Origin: Dethiosulfovibrio peptidovorans DSM 11002
GTDB taxonomy: Bacteria > Synergistota > Synergistia > Synergistales > Dethiosulfovibrionaceae
Direction of reading: 5' to 3'
Length of the DNA: 64,000 nucleotides
Assembly: GCF_000172975.1 (NCBI RefSeq)
Contig: NZ_ABTR02000001.1
Span: 1,402,501-1,466,500 of the forward strand
The notes under the pieces: model-generated
Told to the model about the DNA's origin: nothing
Database searches by the model: none
What the model saw: only the letters and a program-made list of their open reading frames with translations
Shown here: positions 18,195 through 48,616 of the stretch, one piece after another
How positions within the stretch are numbered: position 1 is the first letter of the stretch
Layout of the letters: each line of letters begins with the position of its first letter
Position numbers and translations under genes: made by a program

Positions 18195-18893
18195 CTAGGC
18201 AACGTAGAGGAAGTAAGCTCCCGCTGCCACCACCAGCCATCCGCATATCTGGGAGATCACGAAAGGCCCTTTGCTGTTGTCGGTCCAGTTCATGTATCGA
18301 TCCAGACCGTTCGCGAAGGTTCCGGCCAGGAGAATGACCAAGGCGTAGCCCAGGCCGTAGAGGGTCACGATCGACGCCCCCCTGGCGAGGCTGTCAGTCG
18401 ATGCCTTCATGGCTATGACCAGCATAGGGGCCATGTAGGCGAAGGTGCAGGGGCCCAGTGCCATGCCGGATACCGTTCCAAGAGCCAGGGCTCCCAGCAG
18501 ACCCTTTTTGTTCCCGGCCTTTATGTTTCCCGAAACGAACCATGGGATCGTTATCACGTCCAGAAGATGAAGGCCGAAGACGAAGAGAACCGCCGATACG
18601 ATGTAGTTCATGGCGGAGCTGAGTCCCTGCATTAGAGCTCCTGCTGAGGCTATAACCATACCGACAAGAGCTATGTTGACCAGTATCCCCAGGGAGAAGG
18701 CCCCCGATACCATAAGAGCGTTCTTTGTCCCCTTTTCCTCCTGCCCCTGGATATAACCGACTACAAGTGGTATGCTCACCAAGCTGCAAGGGCTCAGAAG
18801 GACGCTGAATATGCCCCATGCGAAGGCCGCCACCAGAGCCGCCGATCCTGTGCCTGACAGGGCGGCCTGAACCGCGGCAAGCAGGTTACCCAA
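18195..18893 (-). CDS. ccdA: CcdA/DsbD-type transmembrane thiol-electron carrier
   Basis: A 232-residue membrane protein with about six helices that moves reducing equivalents from cytoplasmic thioredoxin to an extracytoplasmic partner. The two redox cysteines are seen in the family motifs LLSPCSLVSIPLVVGY (near 34) and MALGPCTFAYMAP (near 162), one in each half. The TTG start at 18893 has GGGAG eight bases upstream. It lies 15 bases after the Sec-containing thioredoxin-like gene, in the same operon, so that protein is its likely electron acceptor. Alternatives such as cytochrome c maturation are less likely because no other ccm genes are here. Confidence 0.9.
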   Translation of the reverse strand: MGNLLAAVQAALSGTGSAALVAAFAWGIFSVLLSPCSLVSIPLVVGYIQGQEEKGTKNALMVSGAFSLGILVNIALVGMVIASAGALMQGLSSAMNYIVSAVLFVFGLHLLDVITIPWFVSGNIKAGNKKGLLGALALGTVSGMALGPCTFAYMAPMLVIAMKASTDSLARGASIVTLYGLGYALVILLAGTFANGLDRYMNWTDNSKGPFVISQICGWLVVAAGAYFLYVA

Positions 18894-18908
18894 GGCGGAA
18901 TCTCCCGG

Positions 18909-19316
18909 TCATTTCAGGTCCTCCAGCTCGTATCCGAGCTCTTTCCAGCTGTCCTTGAGCTGTTCGGAGTTCATTATGCCCTCGTGCTTTAAGAGTAATT
19001 CTTCCTCGGGGGACAGGAATATCAAGGTGGGGACCACCCTTACTCCGTATTTTTTCGCGTAGTCCATGTTCTCCATGAGGTTTATCTTCCTGACCGTTAT
19101 GCCGCCGTACCTTTCCTCGAACCCTTCCAGGATTCGCGCCATCTCGACGCAGGCAGGTCAGCCCGGCGCGCTGAGGTCGAGGAGGATAGGATAATTCTCC
19201 GATGCCTTGTCCTCCGCCACGGCAGGTGTCTCCGTGCCTTTCAGTCCCTTGAAGTATAACGTTCCCCCGATGATAAGAAAGACGGTCACCAGGGTTATTA
19301 TCTTTCTCGTGTTCAT
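18909..19316 (-). CDS. Membrane-anchored thioredoxin-like selenoprotein (active site Sec-Pro-Ala-Cys)
   Basis: A 135-residue protein read through one in-frame UGA (19158-19160), interpreted as selenocysteine 53. Conventional ORF calling shows only the part after an internal ATG (19142). The full frame starts at ATG 19316 with GGAGG eight bases upstream. Residues 6-20 form a signal anchor. The segment LLDLSAPG-U-PAC-VEMARILEGF matches a thioredoxin active site (C-x-x-C) with Sec in place of the first Cys, and VRVVPTLIFLSPEEE supplies the cis-Pro loop. The open frame upstream of the UGA encodes the correct N-terminal strand, which argues against a chance stop. It is followed by ccdA. A candidate SECIS hairpin lies downstream of the UGA. 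The natural stop is also UGA. Confidence 0.85.
19118..19136 (-). promoter_or_regulatory. Candidate SECIS hairpin for the thioredoxin-like selenoprotein
   Basis: On the minus strand, CGAATCC and GGGTTCG pair over seven base pairs (one G-U) with loop TGGAA. The apical loop starts 28 bases after the UGA and has a G in its first two positions, which fits the usual description of bacterial SECIS elements (loop 16-37 bases from the UGA). No folding program was run. Confidence 0.55.
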
Positions 19317-19377
19317 CCGCTCCGCCTCCTTTCGGTGGAATATCCTACGCTTATTATAAGGTATCCTCGTCGATTTA

Positions 19378-19397
19378 GATAGGTAAAAATACCTATC
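19378..19397. promoter_or_regulatory. 20-bp perfect palindrome, possible operator
   Basis: GATAGGTA and TACCTATC flank AAAA in the region between the divergent selenoprotein and YitT-like genes. A TATAAT on the minus strand (about 19354-19359) could be the -10 box of the selenoprotein operon. The palindrome suits binding of a dimeric regulator; which one is unknown. Confidence 0.45.
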
Positions 19398-19451
19398 ATG
19401 GTGTTTAGAGAGCTTTCTTTATTTCTCGGAATTTTTAGTGGGAGGTTTGAA

Positions 19452-20342
19452 ATGGAGTTTATGTCGCCTAATCGCCTTGTAGGGCGTTTTGCGGAATTGG
19501 TCCGCAGGGAGTGGAACACCTTTTGGCTAGCTACCGTAGGGACTGTCCTGATGAGCTTTGCCATAGTGGCTCTTACGATTCCCTATCGTTTTGCCGGTGC
19601 CGGTCTGGCCGGCATCGCTATTTTGACAAAATATGTCTGGGATATCTCTCCGGCCTGGGCCATAGCTTTCGGAAACGTTTTCCTGCTCGGCTGGGGATGG
19701 AAGGTCCTGTCTCCTCGGTTCGTTCTCTGGACTCTTTACGTCTCTATGCTAACGTCAGGTGCGGTGGCGTTTTTTGAGCTGTTTTCCTATCCGATGCTAC
19801 AGGACGAGTTTCTGGCAGCTATCCTGGCCGGTGTCTTCGGTGGCCTGGGTATAGGATTGGTGTTTCGTGTGGGGGCCTCCACTGGGGGGACCGACGTCAT
19901 AGTGATGGCCGCCAGGAAGAGGTGGGGAGTCGACGTCGGTATGTACTCTTTTTACATAAATATAGCCATACTTCTCGGATCATGGTTCGTCGTAGATCTG
20001 GAGAAATTGTTGCTCGGGGGCGTTGCCCTGTACGTGGAGAGCCTGGTCATAGACAGCGTTCTCAAGTCATTCGACAGACGAAAGCAGATCACTGTAATAA
20101 CGTCCAGAGACGACGAGGTTCGGCGTTTTATCCTCGAAGTCCTTGGCAAGAGCGCTACTGTGGTCAAAGCCGAGGGGGCCTATACCGGCGACGAGAGGAT
20201 GATGTTTATCGTGGTCGTCAACAGGAGACAGGCCATGGAGCTAAAGCGTTTCGTCGTGTCGGTAGATCCCAGGGCCTTCATCGTTTTGTCCGACGTAGCA
20301 GAGGTGGTCGGAGAGGGATTCAAGCACTGGAAACATATCTAA
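19452..20342 (+). CDS. YitT family membrane protein
   Basis: A 296-residue protein with five to six predicted helices followed by a soluble C-terminal DUF2179 domain. The family motif VFRVGASTGGTDVIVMAAR is near 140-160, and the C-terminal part (ITVITSRDDEVRRFILEVLGKSATVV, in two motifs) matches DUF2179. The function of YitT proteins is not established. I chose the ATG at 19452, six bases after GGGAGG, rather than the ATG at 19398, which follows the palindrome directly and has no ribosome site. A terminator follows. Confidence 0.9.
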   Translation: MEFMSPNRLVGRFAELVRREWNTFWLATVGTVLMSFAIVALTIPYRFAGAGLAGIAILTKYVWDISPAWAIAFGNVFLLGWGWKVLSPRFVLWTLYVSMLTSGAVAFFELFSYPMLQDEFLAAILAGVFGGLGIGLVFRVGASTGGTDVIVMAARKRWGVDVGMYSFYINIAILLGSWFVVDLEKLLLGGVALYVESLVIDSVLKSFDRRKQITVITSRDDEVRRFILEVLGKSATVVKAEGAYTGDERMMFIVVVNRRQAMELKRFVVSVDPRAFIVLSDVAEVVGEGFKHWKHI

Positions 20343-48139: not shown

Positions 48140-48616
48140 ATGGGCAAATTGGCCGGAAAGAAACTTATCCTTCTAGGCGAGCGTGACGGTGTTCCCGCAC
48201 CTGCCATGGAGGCGTGTTTCAAGAACAGTGGAGCCGAGGTGATCTTCTCCGTCACCGAGTGCTTCGTCTGAACGGCGGCTGGAGCGATGGACCTGCAGAA
48301 CCAGCAGCGCGTCAAAGACGCTGCTGAGAAGTACAACCCCGAGGATATCGTGGTTATACTGGGTTCCTCCGACGCGGAAGGCGCAGAGATTTATGCCGAG
48401 ACCGTGTGTAACGGAGACCCCACCTACGCAGGACCACTCGCTGGCGTCCAGTTAGGACTAGCCGTCTACGACATTTTCGAGCAGGATATCCGCGATGAGG
48501 CGGATCCGGAGGAATGGGAGAACCAGATCAGCATGATGGAAATGGTTCTTGAGCCCGAGGCTTTGGCTGAAGCCGTAAAGGGCATGAGAGATCAGTTCTC
48601 TAAGTACAGCCTGTAA
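48140..48616 (+). CDS. grdA: Glycine/sarcosine/betaine reductase protein A (selenoprotein)
   Basis: A 158-residue selenoprotein that carries the carboxymethyl-selenoether intermediate of glycine reductase, a reaction that gives acetyl phosphate. Sec44 is coded by the in-frame UGA at 48269-48271, in [18 protein letters not shown]; Cys41 and Sec44 form the C-x-x-U motif. Position 44 matches known GrdA proteins. The frame is open on both sides of the UGA and the C-terminal half ([18 protein letters not shown]) is typical. GGGAGG lies ten bases before the ATG. GCTGG/CCAGC arms after the UGA may be part of the SECIS. No other grd genes are in the window. Confidence 0.96.

Follow-up and report, generated by a model that had tools for sequence, protein, structure and literature searches.

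The stretch of Dethiosulfovibrio peptidovorans DNA analysed here (64,000 nucleotides, C1:1402501-1466500 of a 2.58 Mb assembly; hereafter the window) contains a short thioredoxin-like reading frame that is interrupted by a UGA at positions 19158-19160. This raises the question whether the codon ends the protein or is read as selenocysteine (Sec) and, in the latter case, what the resulting protein would do in the cell. A preliminary description, made from the sequence alone, had noticed that the UGA breaks an otherwise intact frame and was right on this point, as a 135-aa ORF extends around it. Genes of this type are annotated as truncated fragments unless the UGA is read through. Taking all lines of evidence together, we consider it nearly certain that the UGA is recoded to Sec, and very probable that the gene product is an exported, membrane-anchored Sec-thioredoxin served by a CcdA-type electron carrier.

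Organization of the trx-ccdA locus

The Sec-containing thioredoxin-like gene (trx) is located on the minus strand at 18909-19316 and runs from an ATG at 19316 to a terminal TGA stop at 18909-18911. If the internal UGA (19158-19160, minus strand) is translated as Sec, the product MNTRKII...LLDLSAPG-U-PACVEM...LEDLK comprises 135 aa and carries Sec at residue 53 within the motif G-U-P-A-C. The good Shine-Dalgarno site reported earlier is indeed present: AAAGGAGG (19325-19332, minus strand) is found 8 nt ahead of the trx ATG, with similar sites at the same-genus loci. A TATAAT at 19353-19358 (minus strand), which also occurs near the corresponding place in several relatives, is a candidate -10 element of the operon promoter. 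The second gene (18195-18893, minus strand) begins 15 nt after the trx stop with a TTG start and encodes a membrane electron carrier of the CcdA/DsbD-TM type with 232 aa.

Just upstream of the -10 box, the perfect inverted repeat GATAGGTA-AAAA-TACCTATC (19378-19397) separates the trx-ccdA operon from a divergent membrane-protein gene (19398-20342), which by eye is YitT-like. The repeat is perfect only in the three closest genomes and half-kept in others, and represents a possible operator.

An anchored thioredoxin-like protein next to CcdA

Reading through the UGA yields a protein with a hydrophobic N-terminal helix (approximately residues 3-22 in the predicted model), which would serve as membrane anchor, and a thioredoxin domain covering about residues 40-130 with P96 as the candidate cis-proline. 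The protein matches PF00085 with 41.9 bits (cut-off 23.5) as well as PF13098 with 39.3 bits (cut-off 27), and its UPAC motif is of the UxxC form. In the predicted model the domain reaches a pLDDT above 90, and the structure matches found with Foldseek and VIA-align are thioredoxins, with a VIA Z of up to 15.3. Furthermore, Cys/Sec 53, Cys 56 and Pro 96 show no variation among 34 sequences. The earlier description of an anchored, thioredoxin-like product in which Sec replaces the first Cys of the active site holds.

That the next gene encodes a CcdA/DsbD-like carrier had also been proposed and is borne out by a match of 56.0 bits to PF02683 (DsbD_TM, cut-off 27.1) and by two membrane Cys that are invariant in 13 sequences (C36 in SPCSL and C149 in GPCTF). 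The pairing itself is conserved, as ccdA starts within about 50 nt downstream in 25 of the 31 UGA loci and also follows the Cys forms of the same trx clade; no third gene is conserved beside trx-ccdA across families. An identity of the CcdA-type protein as ArsG (NCBIfam) was rejected (52 versus 200 bits), and a PDB sequence search with CcdA gave no match.

A nitroreductase-like ORF, assigned by eye, follows ccdA in some relatives (L081, L085, L086 and L093). In two genomes of the same genus, G004 and G005 (L020, L021), a further thioredoxin-like gene of the Cys type is present, with a distant CcdA-like gene (about 30% identity) after it; among the matches listed for the window's genome there is none of this kind.

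Proposed function and possible acceptors

In the CcdA/DsbD route, electrons pass from cytosolic thioredoxin to CcdA, from there to an exported thioredoxin-like partner and finally to an extracytoplasmic disulfide. Transferred to the trx-ccdA pair, SelB together with tRNA-Sec would read the UGA at codon 53 owing to the hairpin just downstream, while the terminal UGA of this ORF would end translation. The Sec-Pro-Ala-Cys active site would then be exposed on the outer side of the membrane. Via its two membrane Cys, CcdA would obtain electrons from the cytosolic thioredoxin system and reduce the Se-S bond of its Sec-thioredoxin partner, and the reduced Sec-thioredoxin could in turn reduce extracytoplasmic disulfides or comparable oxidised thiols. 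Of the selenium-dependent path for extracytoplasmic thiol reduction suggested in the preliminary description, the conserved trx-ccdA pairing stands as an observation, and the path itself we infer from the anatomy of the two proteins. This applies to the insertion of Sec in the cell, to the membrane topology, to the presence and identity of an extracytoplasmic acceptor and, by analogy with the known route, to the electron flow through CcdA to the Sec-thioredoxin.

The arrangement resembles CcdA-ResA/DsbD-type systems in that a carrier of the PF02683 family, with its invariant pair of membrane Cys, is encoded beside an N-terminally anchored thioredoxin-like protein. In contrast to these systems, the partner carries Sec and no PF01578 protein was found in the genome, and unlike in DsbD the two functions reside in separate genes.

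A variant of the best explanation, in which the acceptor alone is different, is that the pair is dedicated to extracellular small sulfur compounds such as cystine, polysulfide or thiosulfate and not to proteins. The genus Dethiosulfovibrio is known for the reduction of sulfur compounds and DsbA was not found in the genome, both of which would fit such a specialization. However, other Synergistota families have the pair as well, and no substrate gene is conserved beside it; we therefore regard this variant as rather unlikely.

Considerably less probable is a role in apocytochrome c maturation or in a disulfide-forming system in the style of ResA, CcmG or DsbA instead of a general reductase. CcdA-type proteins feed ResA and CcmG in other bacteria, but neither PF01578 (cytochrome c assembly protein) nor PF01323 (DsbA) has a match in the window's genome, which is rated 100% complete, and control genomes do match both models. 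As neither was found, cytochrome c maturation and the classical DsbA branch are unlikely.

Relation to known selenoprotein families

UxxC thioredoxins (PF00085) and UxxC thiol:disulfide interchange proteins (PF13098) are both listed as selenoprotein families (PMC9312934; PMC13188914). As these reviews name families by domain and motif, the trx protein falls into the PF00085 or the PF13098 UxxC class; it fits known selenoprotein classes and is not a new kind of system. With the Sec-thioredoxins of the PF00085 UxxC class it shares the thioredoxin fold, Sec in place of the N-terminal Cys of CxxC and a UGA with a downstream SECIS element, but it differs by its membrane anchor, the UPAC motif, the CcdA neighbour and a score below the cut-off of the thioredoxin equivalog TIGR01068 (47.3 versus 96.8 bits), an identity that was accordingly rejected. 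The likeness to the PF13098 UxxC selenoproteins (reference WP_011366075.1) consists of a PF13098 match above cut-off and the UxxC motif, and is thus a placement by domain and motif. SaoT (NF040730) and TsoB (NF045694) likewise have thioredoxin-like or DsbD-like sequence with Sec; both were rejected as identities, as the trx-ccdA proteins stay far below the curated cut-offs of 65 bits for SaoT (20.5 bits) and 805 bits for TsoB (14.6 and 31.6 bits).

The Synergistetes are described as a selenoprotein-rich phylum (PMC5029168). Our literature search found no paper on a pair of Sec-thioredoxin and CcdA, with the proviso that the supplementary tables of a 2016 survey may list the gene. In trx-ccdA, this anaerobic, selenoprotein-rich phylum offers a clean and testable selenoprotein-CcdA pair.

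Evidence for recoding of the UGA across homologues

The homologue search covered 185 genomes of the phylum and returned homologues in 93 of them. Within the first 55 loci, the first active-site codon is TGA in 31, TGC in 20 and TGT in 4 cases, and never TAA or TAG; the TAG and TAA codons listed inside some search matches turned out to be true 3' stops in the loci and not active-site codons. A further 40 loci contain TGC or TGT in 38 homologues and one plain thioredoxin, and in one locus no CxxC site was detected. Hence, when aligned across the UGA, as the preliminary description had recommended, homologues with U and with C are both found in Synergistota. The TGA is present at the active site in all seven genomes of the same genus and also in far more divergent homologues from other families, and none of the TGA-bearing homologues has a second in-frame stop. 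In distant same-genus pairs (Nei-Gojobori), dN amounts to about 0.13-0.27 downstream of the UGA and to 0.16-0.29 in the N-terminal 24 codons. Because these low values go along with a dS near or above 1, both halves of the gene are under purifying selection. Outside this set, a scan of genome contigs with the single trx protein had a MAG labelled Dethiosulfovibrio as its sole match, and a phage collection gave one weak match.

These data bear directly on the idea that the UGA is a true stop and that two products are made, a short peptide with the anchor and a separate protein of 77 aa starting at the internal ATG at 19142. The 77-aa ORF does exist, but this piece is devoid of the active site, and in the Cys homologues G-U/C-P-A-C and the preceding strand are conserved and continuous. 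Internal starts had been named beforehand as an argument against recoding; conservation among the homologues reaches beyond the UGA into the upstream part, and none of them starts at the internal ATG. In addition, the hairpin described below accompanies UGA and not Cys, and we give two separate products very little credit. Even less remains of a pseudogene or a sequencing error, a concern also raised beforehand, in which the TGA would be a mutated or misread TGC or TGT and the gene either dead or coding for a plain Cys protein: a single base change would be sufficient, but the TGA shared by seven genus genomes and further families, the lack of any other in-frame stop and the low dN/dS on either side of the UGA refute it with independent genomes.

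A probable SECIS hairpin downstream of the UGA

For a UGA that is recoded to Sec, the preliminary description had pointed to a hairpin at SECIS distance. The putative bacterial SECIS element CGAAUCCUGGAAGGGUUCG (19118-19136, minus strand) folds as CGAAUCC-UGGAA-GGGUUCG with -8.1 kcal/mol and presents the loop GGA (19126-19128) 29 nt after the UGA. With these values it lies within the published bSECIS limits of a 3-9 nt loop with a G in the first two loop bases, a distance of 16-37 nt from the UGA and an MFE of at most -7.5 (PMC13188914). The hairpin and its distance could therefore be confirmed, but considered in isolation it is no better than chance. Folding the 81-nt stretch after the UGA resulted in a z of -0.75, which is hardly better than shuffles, synonymous-codon shuffles of the window sequence alone give an equally long stem in 28% of trials, and Rfam at gathering thresholds found nothing in the window. 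It is the comparative test across homologues, and not the window sequence alone, that makes the hairpin significant.

Two registers can be distinguished in this comparison. The window's genus and family f7 have an 8-bp stem with a GGA loop 29 nt past the UGA (one copy has 7 bp around UGGAU), and in family f6 the stem measures at least 6 bp (GUCCAA/UUGGAC or GGCCAA/UUGGCC) and carries the loop AGUU, GGUU or GGUC 23 nt past the UGA. Loop, position of the G and spacing to the UGA agree with the bSECIS model in both cases. Within the genus/f7 set, 98.4% of cells are paired and two pairs show compensatory changes on both sides, compared to 98.1% and one compensatory pair in five sequences for f6. 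Stems of 6 bp or longer at either fixed register occur in 28 of 30 UGA homologues versus 2 of 58 Cys homologues, whereby the registers were picked from the same sequences that were counted and both counts and Fisher values ignore kinship. The count for the first set, which took in plain thioredoxins and paralogues, was 28 of 31 UGA versus 1 of 24 Cys. Counting only independent pairs of a Sec and a Cys form on starred branches (roughly five), the hairpin tracks the UGA in about four and never the reverse. Silent sites are identical in 5 of 8 hairpin codons versus 7 of 28 others (p 0.06), a conservation that is only suggestive.

Sec machinery and further Sec codons

The sel genes, whose presence had been left to be checked, are all in place: the window's genome encodes SelA (558 bits), SelB (362 bits) and SelD (324 bits) as well as a tRNA-Sec with the anticodon UCA (68.8 bits). 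Across the phylum, SelB was detected in 27 of 29 UGA-form genomes versus 42 of 64 others, and the two UGA-form genomes without it are 80% and 86% complete and both have tRNA-Sec. The window also holds a second Sec codon, the in-frame UGA at 48269-48271 (plus strand) within the CFVU motif of a frame resembling GrdA (glycine reductase selenoprotein A), in line with the earlier claim that GrdA in this window is a selenoprotein. Against this background, a suppressor tRNA that reads the UGA as Cys or Trp instead of Sec can be dismissed, as nothing specific supports it besides the Cys found at this position in relatives, while the trx ORF, like its orthologues in G001 and G003, ends in a regular UGA stop, the Sec machinery is complete and every UGA-form genome has SelB or, in the two incomplete ones, tRNA-Sec.

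As a separate observation, the selD gene of the window's genome (L055, G000:C1:2399762-2400694) contains one in-frame TGA, so that SelD itself is probably a selenoprotein.

Exchange of Sec and Cys within the family

The unrooted trx tree, built from 101 alignment columns, contains at least nine Sec/Cys changes, five of which are forced by starred branches. Two Cys members, G053 without a hairpin and G048, are nested in an 11-row clade that is rich in Sec. A third Cys member, G056, retains GUCCAAGGUUCUGGAU, two bases off the B-register stem seen in related UGA forms, and in G071 (L110), a Cys form in whose genome SelB was not detected, a 6-bp SECIS-like stem still stands at the usual place and is possibly a relic. 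The Cys members among Sec members look like cases of Sec-to-Cys change with SECIS decay. Extended to the whole family in Synergistota, this would mean repeated switching, partly from Sec to Cys, with hairpins lost or relict in G053, G056 and G071, some members without detected selB, and SECIS elements at two registers 6 nt apart between lineages. We put this extended reading forward tentatively, as a plausible account that leans slightly to the doubtful side.

Sec-to-Cys change is considered rare in bacteria and has been documented mainly for FdhA and SelD (2026 review, PMC13188914), so the trx family would be a useful addition. Between five and nine switches of Sec and Cys within a single bacterial gene family, some of them with eroded or relict SECIS hairpins, make the evolutionary side modestly interesting. 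SECIS elements that are present, shifted or eroded among relatives offer a direct test of SECIS origin and decay, and the Sec and Cys versions of the operon in close relatives amount to a natural experiment on the contribution of Sec to extracytoplasmic thiol reduction.

Apart from the trx-ccdA pair, another Synergistota family harbours a thioredoxin-like gene with an active-site TGA (L071, G134:C1:1605765-1605983; G-U-P-P-C). It has no visible N-terminal anchor and no ccdA beside it, and represents a separate Sec-thioredoxin candidate.
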